Positions 1,702 through 42,472 of a stretch of 44,163 nucleotides of DNA are shown here, in pieces. The number at the start of each line of letters is the position of its first letter. Positions within the stretch are counted from its first letter, which is position 1. Both the position numbers and the translations under genes were made by a program. This DNA comes from a virus. Location of the stretch: positions 1-44,163 of the IMG/VR virus record IMGVR_UViG_3300022745_000007; one strand, written 5' to 3'. The notes beneath the pieces were generated by a model. It searched no databases and was not told the DNA's origin. It saw only the letters and a list, made by a program, of their open reading frames with translations.

Positions 1702-2619
1702 ATGTCCGAAAATATTCCGCAACTGTTCGTGAGCCAATTTTCCACGAACCTGCAGCTTCGTCTGCAGCAGATGGAAAGCAAGCTGCGGGGGCGTGTTACC
1801 GAAGGAAACCATAAGGGTTCCCGTATGGCGTCTCCGGTCCAGTATCTGACTGCCATGCAGATGAAACAGCCTGCTGGCCGTTTCGCCCCGAAGAACCATC
1901 AAGACCCGTCGTTCACCCGTTACTGGGTTATGCCGCAGGACAAGGAAAATGATGTCCTGATCGACAGCTTCGACGAACTGAAGACCATCATTGATCCGAA
2001 GTCGCAGTATGTCTCCAGTGTGTCTTCGGCCTGTGGCCGCGCCTGGGACGACGCGATTATCGCGGCTGCCTTCGCTCCGTCTACCATCGGCACGGACGCT
2101 AACAGCCTGACCACTGAATCTTTTGACACGTCCCGCTTCCAGATCGCCGCTAACTTTGGTTCATCCTCTGCCGTTGGCCTGACTGTGTCCAAGCTGATTG
2201 AAGCCCGTCGTGTCTTCCGCCACAACCATGTTGATCTGGAAAGCGACCCGGTCACTCTGATCATCGGCAGCCAGCAGGAAGCTGATCTGCTGAACCAAGT
2301 CCAGATCGTCAGTACCGAGTTCAACGACCGTCCGGTTCTGGTCGATGGCCGCGTTACCCGGTTCCTGGGTTTTGATATCGTCGTGTCCGAACGTCTGAGT
2401 TACAGTTCCGGCGTCCGCAACCTGATCGCCTTTACCAAGTCTGGTATGTATCTGGGCATGTGGAAGGACATTACTAACCGGATCAGCATCCGGAATGACC
2501 TGTCCGGTGAACCGTATGACCTCTACACGTCGATCAGTTTCGGTGCAACCCGTCTGGAGCAGGGCCGTGTCCTGCAAATCCAGGTGGCCGACGCTACCAC
2601 TGGTGACATCACCCTGTAA
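1702..2619 (+). CDS. Major capsid protein
   Basis: 305 residues, a usual length for HK97-fold capsid proteins of the Phage_capsid_2 type. The N-terminal helix (SQFSTNLQLRLQQMESKLRG) is followed by beta-rich segments with the spaced SRMASPVQYL and DLYTSISFGATR blocks typical of this family in podoviruses. It forms the icosahedral shell. The ribosome site GAAAGGGTGAGC ends one base before the ATG. A hairpin follows the stop. The position after the scaffold and the high use of common codons fit a very highly expressed gene. Confidence 0.88.
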   Translation: MSENIPQLFVSQFSTNLQLRLQQMESKLRGRVTEGNHKGSRMASPVQYLTAMQMKQPAGRFAPKNHQDPSFTRYWVMPQDKENDVLIDSFDELKTIIDPKSQYVSSVSSACGRAWDDAIIAAAFAPSTIGTDANSLTTESFDTSRFQIAANFGSSSAVGLTVSKLIEARRVFRHNHVDLESDPVTLIIGSQQEADLLNQVQIVSTEFNDRPVLVDGRVTRFLGFDIVVSERLSYSSGVRNLIAFTKSGMYLGMWKDITNRISIRNDLSGEPYDLYTSISFGATRLEQGRVLQIQVADATTGDITL

Positions 2620-33071: not shown

Positions 33072-35069
33072 ATGATCTCCCCCCGTCATCAAGCCGCCAA
33101 AGACCTCGCAGAATGCGGTATCCCGGTTTTTCCCTGCCTCCCTGGCCGGAAAGACCCTGCGACGCCCCATGGTTTTCTGGATGCGACGACGGATCAGGCT
33201 ATCATTGATGCTTGGTGGGGTGTGGCGGATTACAACGTGGCGTTTGAGCCGGGCAAGGCCGGTCTGTGCGTGGTCGATGTTGATGATAAAGCCGGGAAGT
33301 CCGGGTCCAGCAGCCTGTTCGGGCTGGAAATGACCTATGGGGAACTGAACCCCGGCTTTGTCGTCAACACCCCATCGGGTGGGCGGCACCTGTATTTCAA
33401 AGGATCCATGGCACCTTCGGCCAACAAGCTTGGCGACGGGCTGGACATTCGGGGCGAGCGCAGCTATGTCCTGCTGCCCCCCAGCATCGTAGGCGGCAAG
33501 CTCTATACGTCCCCAAGCCCCCTGTGGGCAGAGACATGGCAGCTTGATCAGGTGCCGTCATGGATCAAGACTGCTGTCGCGTCTCCTGTCACCTATGAGG
33601 CGCGTGATGCAGCCGAAGGGATTGAGATTGACAGCCATGTGAATTTCGTCCGGGCGGAAACCTATCTTATGTCCCTGGCTGACGAAGGCGACGTTGCCGT
33701 CGCTGGTCAGGGGGGCAATGACAGGACGTTCCGGGTAATCAATCGGGTGATGGATTTAGGCTTGTCACCCGAGGCGGCCTGTGCTTTAATTAGCGCAGTT
33801 TGGAACCCTGCTTGCATCCCTCCCTGGTCCGACGTTGAATTGCAAACGCTGGTGAGGAATTGCGCAAAGTACCGTCAAAATCAGGCGGGATGCGAAGGGG
33901 TTCAGGACGGGCAGAAGGCTTTCGCTGTGGCGCTGGAAGCCCTTGGTATCACTGGGGAGATTGGCGTTGACCCTGATACATGCCCGTCCATTACCGCCAC
34001 ACTCTCCCCCAAAGAAAAGCAGTTAGCCGCACAGGCCAAATTCAATTTCCGTGGTGCTGAAGGCCGCGCACGAGCCCGCCTGACCGCTAAGAAGCGGGAA
34101 TGGCTGCTGGACGGCCTTGTCCGCTATGGTGAGACGATGCTGATCGTCGCTGACCCACGATCCTTTAAGTCCTTTATCACCCAGCACATTGCCTTGTCTG
34201 TGGCCCATGGCCTGCCCCTGTGGGGGCGGGCGGTCAAGCAGGGACTGGCGGTCTATGTGGCGGCGGAAGGCCGTCATGGCATTGAGAATGACCGCCGGGA
34301 CGCATGGGAAAATGCCAACCATATTGTTGAAGACACTGAAGACTTCATTGTGACCGACGGGGTTCAGGTCTCCATGGTCGAGAGCGTCGAAGCCTTCATC
34401 GAAGGGCTACGCGGGCTGCCAAAGCAGCCTACCCTGATCGTGCTGGACACGATGGCCAAATGTATGCTGGGCATGGATGAAAATTCGGCTAAGGATGTTG
34501 GCTACCTGACCAGCTTTGTTGACCGGCTCAAGAATGAATTTGGGTGCACCGTGATCGTGCTGCACCACACCGCCAAGAACGGGAACAAGGTCAGCCCGCG
34601 CGGATCAGGGGCTTTGCTGGGCAATTTTGACAACGTCTTGTCACTCACCCGCGAAGGGAAGAGCAAGGTTGTCAAGGTCGAAGTCCAGAAGTTCAAGGAC
34701 GACGAAGAGCCCGAAGCCCCTTTAGTGTTGGCGGGGGAGACTGAAGGAGATAGCCTTGTGTTCTCTCTCGCCAATCCCGAAGTGGTGGCTGAAGCTGAAG
34801 AACAATACAGCCCTCTGTCAACCAGCAATATAGGGCGGGTTCTGGCAGATTTCTCCGAACCGATAGGGTCGGATGTGCTGGTGAGGGCCATTGTCATGCA
34901 GACGGCTAAGGCGCATGACACGCCTGATGATATTGAACACAATGTGGCTGAGACGCTGAAACGACTTAACGCAATGATCCGGAAAAATCCGTGGAAATAT
35001 ATCGCTTATGTCAACTCTATGCCCGGCAGGCCGGACATGTGGCAGGGAACTACCCCCACCCCTAAATAG
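33072..35069 (+). CDS. Primase-polymerase / RepA-like helicase fusion
   Basis: 665 residues. The N-terminal Prim-Pol domain (about 5-190) has D69-x-D71 (CVVDVDDK), His106 (TPSGGRHLYF) and Asp125 (GDGLDIRG). After a PriCT-like helical linker comes an AAA_25/RepA-type RecA-fold ATPase with a Walker A variant ADPRSFKSF (360-368; Lys366), Walker B VLDTMAKC (Asp459) and LHHTAKNG near 500. It primes and unwinds phage DNA at the origin. It is the only + strand gene of the replication part, set off by divergent promoters and a hairpin at its end. The ribosome site is weak. Confidence 0.88.
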   Translation: MISPRHQAAKDLAECGIPVFPCLPGRKDPATPHGFLDATTDQAIIDAWWGVADYNVAFEPGKAGLCVVDVDDKAGKSGSSSLFGLEMTYGELNPGFVVNTPSGGRHLYFKGSMAPSANKLGDGLDIRGERSYVLLPPSIVGGKLYTSPSPLWAETWQLDQVPSWIKTAVASPVTYEARDAAEGIEIDSHVNFVRAETYLMSLADEGDVAVAGQGGNDRTFRVINRVMDLGLSPEAACALISAVWNPACIPPWSDVELQTLVRNCAKYRQNQAGCEGVQDGQKAFAVALEALGITGEIGVDPDTCPSITATLSPKEKQLAAQAKFNFRGAEGRARARLTAKKREWLLDGLVRYGETMLIVADPRSFKSFITQHIALSVAHGLPLWGRAVKQGLAVYVAAEGRHGIENDRRDAWENANHIVEDTEDFIVTDGVQVSMVESVEAFIEGLRGLPKQPTLIVLDTMAKCMLGMDENSAKDVGYLTSFVDRLKNEFGCTVIVLHHTAKNGNKVSPRGSGALLGNFDNVLSLTREGKSKVVKVEVQKFKDDEEPEAPLVLAGETEGDSLVFSLANPEVVAEAEEQYSPLSTSNIGRVLADFSEPIGSDVLVRAIVMQTAKAHDTPDDIEHNVAETLKRLNAMIRKNPWKYIAYVNSMPGRPDMWQGTTPTPK

Positions 35070-36629: not shown

Positions 36630-37060
36630 TTCGCCAACTCCTTCATACGATCGATAAGATCAGAGTAATTCGCGCCCCTAGCCCTGTGCAGGCCTGCGAG
36701 AATCAGAGCATCCCATTCAACCCGGTTCTGACCGGTTGAGGCAATCTCGACGTTTTCGAGCTCCCGGAAGGTCTTGAGGAATGCCCCGAACCCGTTCCCC
36801 TTGGTTGAGAATGGGTGTTCAGGCGGTTCGACCCTTGGCAGAGCATCCAGCCAGCCGTGAGGCAGCTTGCCTACCCCGCCGCCAGTGAGCCTGATCCAGT
36901 CCCCGAACCGGGACAACATGGCCCTGTGAACCGTCCCCTCTTTGGTGACGATCATCCAAGGCAGGCACTTCTGTTTGCTGTTGCGCACCCCTGACCGGGG
37001 GATGGACTTGGAAAACACTCCGGCCAGTGTGTCGAGTGTCAGCGTTGCGATAGCGGGCAT
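36626..37060 (-). CDS. 144-residue protein, unknown
   Basis: AGGAG nine bases before ATG 37060. The protein has a beta-like first half (CLPWMIVTKEGTVHRAMLS) and a helical C-terminus (WDALILAGLHRARGANYSDL, IDRMKELAK). No motif recognised. It overlaps the next gene by four bases (ATGA). Confidence 0.65.
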   Translation of the reverse strand: MPAIATLTLDTLAGVFSKSIPRSGVRNSKQKCLPWMIVTKEGTVHRAMLSRFGDWIRLTGGGVGKLPHGWLDALPRVEPPEHPFSTKGNGFGAFLKTFRELENVEIASTGQNRVEWDALILAGLHRARGANYSDLIDRMKELAK

Positions 37061-39260: not shown

Positions 39261-39261
39261 G

Positions 39262-39279
39262 ATGTTAACTCCATAACAT
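39262..39279 (-). promoter_or_regulatory. Hairpin presenting the ribosome site of the first early gene
   Basis: Read leftward: ATGTTA, loop TGGAGT, TAACAT, then C and the start codon ATG. The GGAG sits in the loop and the stem ends one base before the ATG. A six-pair AU-rich stem could melt with temperature or be stabilised by a protein. Confidence 0.5.
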
Positions 39280-39299
39280 GAGGTTGCCGTTTCGACCCA

Positions 39300-39518
39300 C
39301 ACCCCTGATTGAGGGGTGACATGGGGTTGCCAAAGGCCAGCGGCAGGGGCTGGCCTTGAGGAACACCGTGTCGGGTTCAGATGTTACATGATTAGCTTAC
39401 GCATCTTGTGTTTTCGCGCCCCACCATCACATGGGTTTCGTCTTACCCGGCCCTTGACCGAGATAGGGTGCATTGAGGGTTGGCCCTCTGTATGGCCTTA
39501 AGACCGCTTTTGGTCTTA
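39300..39518. other. Chain of short hairpins in non-coding DNA
   Basis: Successive inverted repeats: CACCCCT/AGGGGTG (39300-39318), AAGGCCAGC/GCTGGCCTT (39333-39357), GAAC-CC/GG-GTTC (39361-39378), AGATG/CATCT (39379-39406), GGGT/ACCC (39433-39448), CCCT/AGGG (39451-39468), GAGGG/CCCTC (39475-39488) and TAAGACC/GGTCTTA (39499-39518). No reading frame with a ribosome site lies here. Strand is undecided: as RNA it would be either a 5' leader of the leftward early operon or a rightward non-coding RNA. Individual 4-5-bp hairpins could be chance; the 7- and 9-bp ones are not likely to be. Confidence 0.6.
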
Positions 39519-39522
39519 TTGT

Positions 39523-39644
39523 GACGGTTTTAAGTTTACCGTCCTCTGAGGTAGCCTAGGCTAGCCCGCAATCTGGCGTCACCCTCCCGAAGGGGGGCGA
39601 CTGGATTGTGGTAGCCGCTTGGCTCACTCAACACGGTAAACTTA
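39523..39644. ncRNA. Branched structured element closed by a 12-bp stem
   Basis: TAAGTTTACCGT (39531-39542) is exactly complementary to ACGGTAAACTTA (39633-39644), enclosing 90 bases. Inside lie the palindrome TAGCCTAGGCTA (39552-39563), a long rod (39566-39573 with 39604-39611, capped by CCCTCC/GGGGGG at 39582-39597) and AGCC/GGCT (39613-39624): a cloverleaf-like shape. A competing hairpin, GACGGT/ACCGTC (39523-39543), uses the same left arm, so two folds exclude each other. Leftward reading gives a UUCG tetraloop in the rod; rightward reading gives more G-U pairs. It is not a tRNA (no T-loop, wrong stem lengths). Confidence 0.45.
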
Positions 39645-39677
39645 CCTGGTGATTTGTCGGAAATCAACTATACTAAA

Positions 39678-39705
39678 GTATTAGAATAGACTTTTTTCTC
39701 AGCAA
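39678..39705 (-). promoter_or_regulatory. Candidate leftward early promoter
   Basis: Read leftward: TTGCTG (39705-39700), 16-base spacer, TAATAC (39683-39678). Transcription would start near 39670, just before the branched element, giving a leader of about 410 bases in front of the first early gene. Four of six bases match in each box. It is the best leftward sigma-70 site I see between the G-rich tract and the early genes. Confidence 0.4.
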
Positions 39706-39755
39706 GCGACTGGCCGAATGGTAACGGATGATGACGCTAGGTGACTGTCAGTCGC
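39706..39755. repeat. Inverted repeat GCGACTG/CAGTCGC
   Basis: GCGACTG at 39706-39712 and CAGTCGC at 39749-39755, seven pairs 36 bases apart. Inside the right arm the shorter dyad GACTG-T-CAGTC (39743-39753) overlaps it, again offering two exclusive pairings. It lies just upstream of the candidate leftward promoter and may be an operator. Confidence 0.5.
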
Positions 39756-39858
39756 CCGTGATGTTGCCATATGTGCGTGCTAGGCAGCCCCGGATGACCA
39801 TTGTTTCGATCCCGTTTTACCGGCTGGATGGCGTTCCCCACCGAATAAATTTTTTTTT

Positions 39859-39892
39859 CACGAAATAAAATTTCGCGCAAGATTGTTGCGTG
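39859..39892. repeat. 34-bp iteron-like element, copy 1
   Basis: CACGAAA-N5-TTTCG followed directly by CGCAA-GATTG-TTGCG and TG. Each copy therefore holds two adjacent inverted repeats with five-base centres. A nine-base T run precedes it. Typical of binding sites for a replication initiator or a repressor. Confidence 0.85.
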
Positions 39893-39934
39893 GCAATCCA
39901 TGCCCCATCGGCACCCACCGACGCCTACCGACGC

Positions 39935-39968
39935 CACGAAACTTTCTTTCGCGCAAGATTGTTGCGTG
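39935..39968. repeat. 34-bp iteron-like element, copy 2
   Basis: Same as copy 1 except for the first five-base centre (CTTTC in place of TAAAA); all arm bases are kept. Start-to-start distance is 76 bases. Between the copies lies a short ACCGACGCC repeat with a 10-base period (39918-39936). Confidence 0.85.
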
Positions 39969-39989
39969 ATGCTAGAGGACATGGGGCAT

Positions 39990-40096
39990 ATGCCCGCGCG
40001 TGTGCATCATACGGGCGCGCGTAATAATCTTTCGCGCATGTGTGGTCATTACTCGCGCATACCCGCGCGTAGATATATCGCGCCCGCGCGCGTAGT
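39990..40096. other. Alternating CG/GC-rich tract, possible Z-DNA
   Basis: Many CGCGC and GCGCG runs (for example GGGCGCGCG near 40013, CCCGCGCGT near 40061, CCCGCGCGCG near 40083) separated by short AT patches such as TAATAAT and AGATATATCG. Alternating purine-pyrimidine DNA of this kind readily takes the left-handed form under supercoiling. No gene fits. Confidence 0.7.
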
Positions 40097-40101
40097 AATA
40101 T

Positions 40102-40128
40102 GGGGGGGGGTGGGGTGGGGGGGTGGGG
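40102..40128 (+). other. Four-run G-quadruplex motif
   Basis: G runs of nine, four, seven and four bases (40102-40110, 40112-40115, 40117-40123, 40125-40128) joined by single T. Single-base loops and long runs give an extremely stable parallel quadruplex. It is the only such tract I saw in the window. Immediately after it the DNA turns AT-rich (40141-40160). Confidence 0.9.
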
Positions 40129-40174
40129 TCGGCGGCCCCGTAATTAATATAAAATTTCGTCTAAAGCCTCTAGC

Positions 40175-40256
40175 GCGGACCGATTGATAATCGTTGCTAA
40201 TCAATTAGCATACAGGGCGGACCGATTGATAATCGTTGCTAATCAATTAGCATACA
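40175..40256. repeat. Two 40-bp tandem direct repeats
   Basis: Copies at 40175-40214 and 40217-40256 are identical and two bases apart (period 42, four helical turns). Each begins GCGGACCGATTGAT and contains the dyad GCTAAT-CA-ATTAGC near its end. They lie 130 bases before the small terminase gene and upstream of a TATAAT box, so they are good candidates for operators or small-terminase packaging sites. Confidence 0.95.
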
Positions 40257-40342
40257 AGACGCCCAACCACAGAAACCAACCGTTACAAAATGCATTTCAC
40301 AGACAAAGTGTGTAGAATGAAATTGTCTTGCGTCAATTAGTA

Positions 40343-40388
40343 TATAATGATAAGTTTGTAGCTCAGGCACATATAAAGGAGACAAGCA
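40343..40388 (+). promoter_or_regulatory. Candidate late promoter and ribosome site of the terminase operon
   Basis: TATAAT at 40343-40348 is a perfect -10, but no good -35 lies 16-18 bases upstream (TTGTCT at 40323-40328 is only 14 away), suggesting that an activator is needed. AAAGGAG (40376-40382) lies just before the ATG at 40388 and fixes that start against upstream in-frame codons. Confidence 0.45.
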
Positions 40389-41020
40389 TGTCCGAAAGAA
40401 ACCCTGTGGTGGCGTTCCCACGCGATGATGAGCTTGAGCGAACAACGCGACTTGGCCCGCATATGGCGGCGCTGACCGACATGCAACGCGATTTTATCGC
40501 AGCATATCTTGAAAGCCCTATGCAGCCAGCAAATGCAGCAAAGGCCGCCGGATACTCTGCATCCAGCACAAACAATCTCAGAGTGACGGCAAGCCGCCTT
40601 TTGTCTGACAGCAAGGTCCAGGCCGCCCTGAAGGAAGAAGCAGTCCGGAGGCTTGGGTCAGCGTCCGTTATGGCCGCAGCAGTCGTGATGGAGATCTGCA
40701 TGGACCCAACCGTCAGGGCCAGTGACCGGCTTAAGGCGGCGGGGATGATCATGAAGGCAACCGGGATCGAAGGCGACACGACGGTCAACGTGGTCATCTC
40801 AGACGACAGTGCCAAAATGAAACGGGTTCAGGAACTGGCTGGTGTTATGGGTCTGTCTAAAGAAGATGTTGAACGCATGGCCGGGGTTGTCATCGAAACT
40901 GACTGGACGACAGTCAAGCAGCCGGTCGCAGGGGACAGTGGCGTCCTTAACCTTCCTGACAGCCCTGATATTCTTCCGGACTGGGTTGATGGTCTCAAAG
41001 GACTGGAGGACTGGGTGTAA
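40388..41020 (+). CDS. Terminase small subunit
   Basis: 210 residues. Residues 30-84 hold the classical small-terminase helix-turn-helix domain (MQRDFIAAYLESPMQPANAA, KAAGYSASSTNN, ASRLLSDSKVQAAL). The middle helices (residues 90-130) would form the ring, and the C-terminus is acidic and aromatic (ILPDWVDGLKGLEDWV). It recognises the packaging site and recruits the large subunit, whose gene follows without a gap. First gene of the rightward late operon. Confidence 0.93.
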   Translation: MSERNPVVAFPRDDELERTTRLGPHMAALTDMQRDFIAAYLESPMQPANAAKAAGYSASSTNNLRVTASRLLSDSKVQAALKEEAVRRLGSASVMAAAVVMEICMDPTVRASDRLKAAGMIMKATGIEGDTTVNVVISDDSAKMKRVQELAGVMGLSKEDVERMAGVVIETDWTTVKQPVAGDSGVLNLPDSPDILPDWVDGLKGLEDWV

Positions 41021-42472
41021 ATGGCTAAGCAACCAAATATGAAGGTCAGTGACCCGCGAAAGCTGGAAACTGCCGCAGAACTCGCAGAACTTGTCAATCA
41101 TCTTCGGAAGTTCAGAAAAAAGGCGTCGTTCAAGCCTTACGCTAAGCAAGTCGAATTCTTCTATATGGGGGACAGATACCGGGAACGACTTCTCATGGCC
41201 GGGAACCAGCTTGGAAAGACAGAAGCCGGAGCGTTTGAAACGGCCTGTCACCTGACAGGAGAATATCCGGACTGGTGGGCGGGGAAGCGTTTCGATGAAG
41301 CTGTCAACTGGTGGGCCGCAGGCGTCACAGGGGCCATTGTCCGCGACGCCCAGCAAGCCAAGCTGTGTGGCCCTCCGGGTGTTATCGCAGACTTTGGGTC
41401 CGGTCTGATCCCGAGAGAAGCTTTCGCCCAGCCGCCCAGTACCAGCCGTGGAACGCCGGACGCTTATGACACAATTTATGTCAAGCATAAGTCTGGCGGT
41501 ATCTCAACCCTCACATTCAAGTCATATGAGAGTGGACGAGGAAAATTTCAGGCCGTTACCCTGGATGGTATCTGGCTGGACGAAGAGCCGCCTCTGGACA
41601 TTTATGGCGAGTGTCTGGCCAGGATCGCCGCGACAAACGGTATCCTCTATATGACCTTCACCCCGCTCATGGGGATGACAAAGATCGTAGAGGACTTCCT
41701 CAGTGGCCGGTCAAAGGACCGGGGCGTCGTCACAATGACAATTGAGGACGCCGAACACATTCCAAAGGAGATGAGGGCAAGGATCATTGAAGGCTACCCG
41801 GCCCACGAACGGGATGCACGTGTCAAGGGGATCCCAATGATGGGGTCAGGTAGGGTCTTCCCGTACAGCGATGATGCCGTCATTGAAGGGTCATTTGACC
41901 TTCCGAAGCATTGGCCTCTGATATGGGGAGTTGACTTCGGTATCGGCCACCCGTTCGCGGCTGTTTTGGCTGCGTGGGACCGTGATCTTGATGTCATTCA
42001 TATCCTGAATGGGTTCAAGATGTCGGACAGCCTCCCTCTGGTCCATGCCAAGCGGATGAAGGCGATCTGCGCGTCGGCACCTGTGGCATGGCCGCATGAC
42101 GGCAACCAGCGCGAGAAATCGTCAGGCAAGACTTTGGCCTCCGTGTATAAGCAAGAAGGCCTTAGTATGCTGGGGTCGCACAGCACATTCCCGGATGGCG
42201 GTATGAGCCCTGAAGCCGCCATTCTCGAAATGTCATCAAGGTTCAATGAGGGGAGGCTGAAGGTGGCCTACCATCTCACAGACTGGCTGAATGAATTCCA
42301 GATGTACCACAGGAAGGACGGCCTGATCGTTAAAACCAATGACGACCTTCTGGACGCGACGATGAAGGTGATCATGATGAAAAGAATGGCCCGCATTTGC
42401 CCACTGGGGGCCGGGTATGGAAAGAGGGACAGGCAGAAGGTTGCTCATGATGTTGACTTCGACGTAAGTTAA
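41021..42472 (+). CDS. Terminase large subunit
   Basis: 483 residues. The ATPase has Walker A GNQLGKT (61-67) and Walker B with catalytic Glu (IWLDEEPP, D187-E189). The nuclease domain has Asp305 (WGVDFGIGHP), a second acidic site near WPHDGNQ and a third at DDLLDATMKV. Length and order are normal. It pumps DNA into the procapsid and cuts concatemers. It starts at the base after the small-subunit stop. The family group would help tell pac from cos packaging but cannot be settled here. Confidence 0.95.
   Translation: MAKQPNMKVSDPRKLETAAELAELVNHLRKFRKKASFKPYAKQVEFFYMGDRYRERLLMAGNQLGKTEAGAFETACHLTGEYPDWWAGKRFDEAVNWWAAGVTGAIVRDAQQAKLCGPPGVIADFGSGLIPREAFAQPPSTSRGTPDAYDTIYVKHKSGGISTLTFKSYESGRGKFQAVTLDGIWLDEEPPLDIYGECLARIAATNGILYMTFTPLMGMTKIVEDFLSGRSKDRGVVTMTIEDAEHIPKEMRARIIEGYPAHERDARVKGIPMMGSGRVFPYSDDAVIEGSFDLPKHWPLIWGVDFGIGHPFAAVLAAWDRDLDVIHILNGFKMSDSLPLVHAKRMKAICASAPVAWPHDGNQREKSSGKTLASVYKQEGLSMLGSHSTFPDGGMSPEAAILEMSSRFNEGRLKVAYHLTDWLNEFQMYHRKDGLIVKTNDDLLDATMKVIMMKRMARICPLGAGYGKRDRQKVAHDVDFDVS

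Follow-up and report, generated by a model that had tools for sequence, protein, structure and literature searches.

What lies in the noncoding DNA that separates the leftward genes of an uncultured tailed phage from its terminase genes, and does it work as RNA or as DNA? The phage is represented by a 44,163-base IMG/VR virus record, which was analysed in its whole length and is referred to here as the window; it is apparently circularly permuted, as the open frame that follows TerL continues past the right end. A preliminary description of positions 39262-39705 had pointed to a dense, branched, RNA-like structure of about 400 bases and read it either as a long leader of 13 early genes or as a phage RNA of no class that could be named. 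Judged from sequence, the region appears to hold a noncoding, structured element of putative function directly ahead of leftward early-type genes. It lies outside the Rfam classes and recurs in related phages, but a leader of the kind first proposed is not supported as described.

The intergenic region and its predicted fold

Codon usage backs minus-strand genes from 35.1 to 39.26 kb, rules out plus-strand genes at 38.3-39.3 kb and supports no coding at 39261-40327. PolA, an SNF2-type helicase and a DUF2800 protein are encoded among the leftward genes of the window, and it is from such gene content and from orientation that we label these genes early. The adjoining leftward block comprises about nine genes (35.1-39.26 kb) before the Prim-Pol gene intervenes on the plus strand, which shortens the run of 13 described earlier. 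Coordinates of these and the following features are collected in Table 1.

The whole 444 nt folded on the minus strand to -167.7 kcal/mol (z -5.33), with none of 100 shuffles as stable, and gave a z of -4.92 on the plus strand. Strong folding was thus confirmed for both strands, but its density is uneven. The signal is concentrated in the right part (39531-39667, minus strand, z -5.85), while the left two thirds (39262-39530) are moderately structured (z -2.79 minus, -2.80 plus) and folding is unremarkable in the 120-nt windows from 39320 to 39500. Small hairpins, as had been described, are present in number at 39262-39530. The perfect 12-bp stem is likewise present, but what it encloses is a single unbranched imperfect hairpin and not a cloverleaf. 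A tRNA-like identity was rejected on this ground and on a negative ARAGORN search for tRNA and tmRNA. An Rfam covariance-model search yielded no meaningful match, even at E <= 5, in agreement with the earlier failure to name a class; a separate noncoding RNA is possible. The hairpin said to compete for the stem was also recovered, and it is predicted for minus-strand RNA that is missing the left arm. In the models, the full RNA and the RNA from the predicted start take different folds, so the suggested switch between two folds is predicted as well.

The left arm of the stem starts at the -10 of a leftward σ70-type promoter that is weak in the window (TTGATT-N17-TAAGTT). RNA from its predicted +1 is strongly folded by itself (z -5.62). 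A further leftward promoter-like site had been placed at the far end of the region; it exists but is weak, with about 6 of 12 consensus matches, and was not among the hits of the promoter consensus scan.

Table 1. Features of the window, and promoter loci of the 20 phages listed by the first T of the -35 on the minus strand
Feature	Position	Strand	Remarks
Capsid gene	1702-2619	+	
Prim-Pol/AAA gene	33072-35069	+	interrupts otherwise leftward block
First longer leftward gene, 108 aa	38934-39260	-	ATG 39260; Shine-Dalgarno GGAG 39269-39272
7-bp hairpin CACCCCT/AGGGGTG	39300-39318	-	
9-bp hairpin AAGGCCAGC/GCTGGCCTT	39333-39357	-	without T-run
Possible basic leader ORF, 29 codons	39384-39473	-	ATG 39473; unproven
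Small hairpin GAGGG/CCCTC	39475-39488	-	overlaps possible Shine-Dalgarno
Small hairpin AAGACC/GGTCTT	39500-39517	-	
Competing hairpin	39523-39543	-	plus-strand letters GACGGT 39523-39528 with ACCGTC 39538-39543; predicted only without left arm
Stem right arm ACGGTAAACTTA	39531-39542	-	pairs with 39633-39644
Inner part, long unbranched imperfect hairpin	39543-39632	-	predicted transcription start near 39632
Stem left arm TAAGTTTACCGT	39633-39644	-	perfect 12 bp; -12 to -1 relative to predicted start
-10-like hexamer TAAGTT	39639-39644	-	17 nt after -35; first half of stem left arm
-35-like hexamer TTGATT	39662-39667	-	position of relatives' TTGAC[AT]; left edge of inverted repeat
Weak upstream promoter-like site TTGCTG-N16-TAATAC	39678-39705	-	RNA from here would hold whole hairpin
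Terminase small subunit (terS)	40328-41020	+	
TerL	41021-42472	+	
Promoter loci 1-7	window 39667; L104 3438; L095 777; L116 1234; L127 3089; L094 3269; L101 2573	-	
Promoter loci 8-14	L090 796; L007 3992; L115 683; L295 1975; L421 3792; L315 3347; L323 909	-	
Promoter loci 15-20	L388 955; L310 2959; L328 1210; L312 3027; L382 3327; L336 3045	-	

Other features of the window were recorded alongside. Its cumulative GC skew turns near 40 kb, and the noncoding DNA from the leftward promoter to terS holds two palindromes of the CGCAA-N5-TTGCG type (39876-39891 and 39952-39967), a candidate operator or origin element that is also found in L090, L094, L095, L104, L115 and L007, which otherwise lack nucleotide similarity. 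Directly upstream of terS are two tandem 42-nt copies, 90% identical, with an ATTGAT...ATCAAT dyad (40165-40248). A G-run tract at 40102-40135, also upstream of terS, is a possible quadruplex, and similar G-runs lie upstream of the terminase genes in L005, L125, L103, L110, L116 and L117. The interval that separates the capsid gene from its neighbour contains a match to the Rfam abiF RNA (RF03085) at 2627-2663; its 44 bits exceed the gathering score, and an accompanying abiF gene was not noticed. Two good terminator-like hairpins with T-runs are found near leftward intergenic gaps (29515-29491 and 27241-27217, minus strand).

A promoter at the edge of an inverted repeat in related phages

A blastn search of 50,697 phage records gave no match to the region, nor did a nucleotide search of plasmid records, and scanning the searched collections for the pattern of the window's own stem gave no hit. 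Relatives were gathered by TerL, capsid and first leftward gene, with genome contigs searched too. None was close enough for base-by-base covariation, and when their regions were compared, essentially only identical copies were alike in nucleotide sequence. The divergent layout was missing from the annotated cultured or named TerL relatives, namely Achromobacter CF418P1, Microcystis MJing1 and Manatee Spring ctDrO704.

L090 has a structured element at the equivalent site, before its first leftward gene, and the promoter TTGACA-N17-TATTGT there coincides with the left arm of the stem. The corresponding promoters are TTGACT-N17-TATGCT in L101 and L116 and TTGACA-N17-TATGTT in L094. In all, 20 TerL-related phages (the window and 19 others) carry a leftward TTGAC[AT]-N17-TATrnT-like promoter at the left edge of an inverted repeat. 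The composition of these promoters is cTTGAC[AT][AT], with a G placed two bases ahead of the -10, a feature of extended -10 promoters; no second conserved promoter was found upstream by eye. Nucleotide similarity between the non-identical regions is absent beyond one side match, and the layout, a promoter inside a hairpin arm, appears to be kept while the letters change completely. Base changes that break the stems without compensation, which the preliminary description counted, along with the absence of a transcript, as refuting its reading, are not what the 20 phages display: pairing is kept as sequence changes. Some relatives, among them L106 and L085, have a comparable leftward promoter without the repeat. 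The window departs from the family in its weaker promoter, in a leader of about 270 nt with extra small hairpins and the possible ORF, and in folding strongly from +1 as well.

The imperfect inverted repeat measures 114 bp in the window and mostly 85-130 bp in the relatives, the weakest being L382 with a short repeat of about 48 bp. It starts at -22 to -31 in 19 of the 20 phages and at -12 in the window, just inside the -35; the search for its start was limited to -31, and both a repeat-first scan and a complementarity profile give the same edge. The -35 therefore sits just outside the repeat, and the -10 and the start inside its left arm. The right end falls no more than 20 nt before the Shine-Dalgarno sequence in 16 of the 20; in the window the distance is 42 nt to the possible one and about 260 nt to that of the 108-aa gene. 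The arms are about 80% identical, with bulges and mismatches. Complementarity is specific to each phage and highest from -15 to +2, where 8.5-8.6 of 12 positions pair versus 7.0 with the leaders of other phages. Upstream of -36 there is no complementarity of this kind, and the -35 is left out of pairing.

From -30 to the right end, the mean z of the 20 phages is -5.31, with every one below -2, an average inflated by selection because the sites were chosen partly by repeat score. It is -1.37 from +1 onward, and -0.35 and -0.46 in the flanks. The element is thus not simply a 5' leader, since the family-wide fold needs the promoter part. It requires DNA that precedes the start predicted for the native promoter, so that a leader RNA from this promoter would not contain the exceptional fold, and the long leader of the early genes is not upheld in its original form.

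These results bear on an RNA of the put type of phage HK022, a cis-acting leader whose folding would begin near +1 and which would attach to RNA polymerase during elongation and carry it past terminators of the leftward operon. The position right after an early promoter is that of putL (PMC9378689), RNA from +1 is strongly folded in the window, and the two terminator-like hairpins noted above lie in leftward gaps. Nevertheless, across the family the RNA from +1 is only mildly structured and the fold needs -15 to -1, even though the window also folds from +1. Known put RNAs share sequence similarity (PMC9378689), whereas no conserved sequence appeared here, either by blastn in the 50,697 phage records or in the comparison among the 20. 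Terminator-like sites are no commoner in the window than in shuffles (15 vs 15.4). We consider this reading unlikely.

The association of promoter and repeat was also approached from both sides, in checks that, like the comparison with the leaders of other phages, suffer less from this selection. Among 80 strong promoter-like sites found by sequence pattern (one that took in the window's own site), the repeat z exceeded 3 in 12, nine of which come from the present set. An earlier set had given a duplex z below -4 at 4 of 76 leftward sites versus 0 of 445 others. In the promoter-blind, repeat-first scan of 190 repeats, a promoter score of at least 9.5 was reached at 6 on the minus side versus 1 on the plus side, and all six belong to the 20-phage set.

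Two other arrangements were observed. L094 has a second leftward promoter (2957, minus strand), TTGACA-N17-CATTGT, whose -35 overlaps the preceding stop codon and which is centred in a near-perfect palindrome, CTAGCGCGCGGGCA-TTG-TGCTCGCGCGCTAG. L205, a beta-proteobacterial MAG (1415, minus strand), has tandem promoters and an inverted repeat, of which the right arm and not the left holds the second -10 (TATTTT), immediately ahead of the Shine-Dalgarno sequence.

Possible roles of the hairpin

Our preferred explanation, held tentatively and with less than even confidence, is an intergenic hairpin that processes or insulates read-through RNA and has a promoter embedded in it. The paired form would act as RNA. 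Polymerase coming from an upstream promoter, or from upstream genes of the same leftward operon, would transcribe across the site, and the read-through RNA would fold into one long hairpin before the next gene. As an RNase III-type site, this hairpin would leave a clean 5' end on the message downstream and protect the 3' end of the one upstream, as T7 sites do. Transcripts from the embedded promoter would begin within the hairpin, would not include its left arm and would require no processing, and both sources would yield nearly the same mature message. In the promoter-start RNA of the window, the right arm is predicted to refold into the GACGGT/ACCGTC hairpin.

The preference rests on the recurrence of the element, its phage-specific complementarity and its need for the promoter part, on leftward ORFs upstream of the site and on likeness to the T7 promoter E[6] (see below). 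Such ORFs are present in at least L323, L116, L328 and L312, so that read-through RNA with the entire hairpin is expected there. The bulged, mismatched arms would also fit a single-strand fold. Against processing count the window itself, in which the upstream DNA is noncoding and offers a single, weak promoter candidate, an exposure of the Shine-Dalgarno sequence that the left arm leaves unchanged, and relatives such as L106 and L085, whose comparable promoters lack the repeat.

A translational variant would have read-through RNA hide the ribosome site, which native RNA without the left arm would leave free, by the logic of IS10 or T4 lysozyme. A promoter in the left arm provides the right geometry for such fold-back inhibition, but the predicted mean exposure of the Shine-Dalgarno sequence is 0.38 with the left arm and 0.41 without it (more open in 8 and less open in 4 of the 20 phages). 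Since exposure is the same, no translational effect is predicted; occlusion by the left arm was rejected, and we regard this variant as very improbable.

Mismatches between the arms offered a test of whether RNA or DNA is under constraint. In the 20 phages, 20 were of the G-U type and 23 of the A-C type, with no enrichment. The same procedure gave 62:45 on 16 6S RNAs and 14:12 on 16 4.5S RNAs, a bias so small that the test has no power. As known RNAs give similar ratios, it cannot decide between RNA and DNA, and a DNA-level constraint deduced from the ratio was dropped.

Two readings place the paired form in DNA. In the first, the hairpin would form in single-stranded DNA, during replication or in an R-loop, as a priming site, a protein-binding site or a means of making the -10 unavailable. 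The two strands fold with about equal stability (the minus strand is the stabler in 10 of the 20), and with DNA energies each reaches about -30 kcal/mol in the window; the adjoining noncoding palindromes, the skew turn near 40 kb and the Prim-Pol gene also speak for it. The -35, however, is consistently unpaired, unlike in Frpo. To our knowledge, no single-stranded stage of the early promoter has been described for such phages, which also counts against the reading, and we give it a low probability.

The second is a switch in duplex DNA, in which supercoil-driven cruciform extrusion would break the promoter or a looping regulator would bind both arms. There is a precedent in the N4 work, where a hairpin between -35 and -10 abolished an E. 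coli promoter in a gyrase-dependent manner (PMC4496689), and the palindrome around the second L094 promoter, with its 3-nt loop, would suit the idea. Here, extrusion is less likely because the arms are imperfect: there are many bulges and mismatches and several G+C-rich centres, and extruding about 115 bp looks unfavourable by our own estimate. From phage to phage the arms have no motif in common, and they contain gaps, in contrast to protein sites; a switch of this kind seems improbable.

A rather doubtful idea is a widespread phage device that has not been described, in which almost all of the DNA from the -35 to the ribosome site would be kept self-complementary, with promoter melting, start site and hairpin coupled and selection acting on pairing alone. 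No prior description of the layout was found in a limited search of the open-access literature, which is weak evidence of novelty. What recurs is a sharply placed arrangement in which the region where a promoter melts is complementary to the last part of that promoter's leader; no cultured close relative of the phages that have it was found here. If read-through processing proves true, message processing in the manner of T7 also occurs in an unrelated group with host-type promoters; otherwise the layout indicates that the opening of a promoter is tied to a hairpin in a way not yet described.

Comparison with known systems

Processing in T7 is experimentally known. With promoter positions taken from the T7 record, the E. 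coli promoter E[6] at 36836 was found in the left arm of a hairpin (z -4.1 vs -0.8 with the same scripts). Like the phages described here, T7 has at E[6] and at C (3113) a σ70 promoter with its -10 in the left arm of a hairpin that precedes the next gene, and at E[6] the fold also depends on sequence upstream of +1. The T7 hairpins are shorter, and only E[6] among the host promoters has the full signature, whereas the repeat here fills the space from the -35 to the Shine-Dalgarno sequence and recurs in 20 phages. The intergenic hairpin ends just before the Shine-Dalgarno sequence in most of the set, and the -10 is in the left arm both in the set and at E[6], which we take to lie near the RNase III site R18.5 (Dunn and Studier 1983). 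By this analogy the element may be a site of the T7 RNase III type with putative cleavage, an assignment that we favour with less than even confidence.

The putL and putR RNAs of HK022 resemble the element as structured RNA near the start of an early transcript and need no protein factor. They comprise about 70 nt in two stem-loops, are conserved in sequence and lie wholly downstream of the promoter (PMC9378689), in contrast to the present case, where the key arm lies in the promoter and the sequence is not conserved.

The single-stranded-DNA promoters Frpo/ssi of conjugative plasmids likewise combine promoter elements with complementary stretches nearby, and Frpo has sequences complementary to each of its -10, -35 and UP elements (PMC11541004). 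Here the -10 pairs but the -35 is excluded, with no own complementarity upstream of -36, and the phage genome is double-stranded. A Frpo-type promoter fails because the -35 is unpaired.

The promoters of the N4 virion RNA polymerase also join a phage early promoter to a hairpin many of whose letters may vary if pairing is kept. Those hairpins are small, are used by the virion polymerase and form by extrusion from supercoiled DNA (PMC4496689), whereas the promoter here is of the host σ70 type and the hairpin is about 100 nt long.
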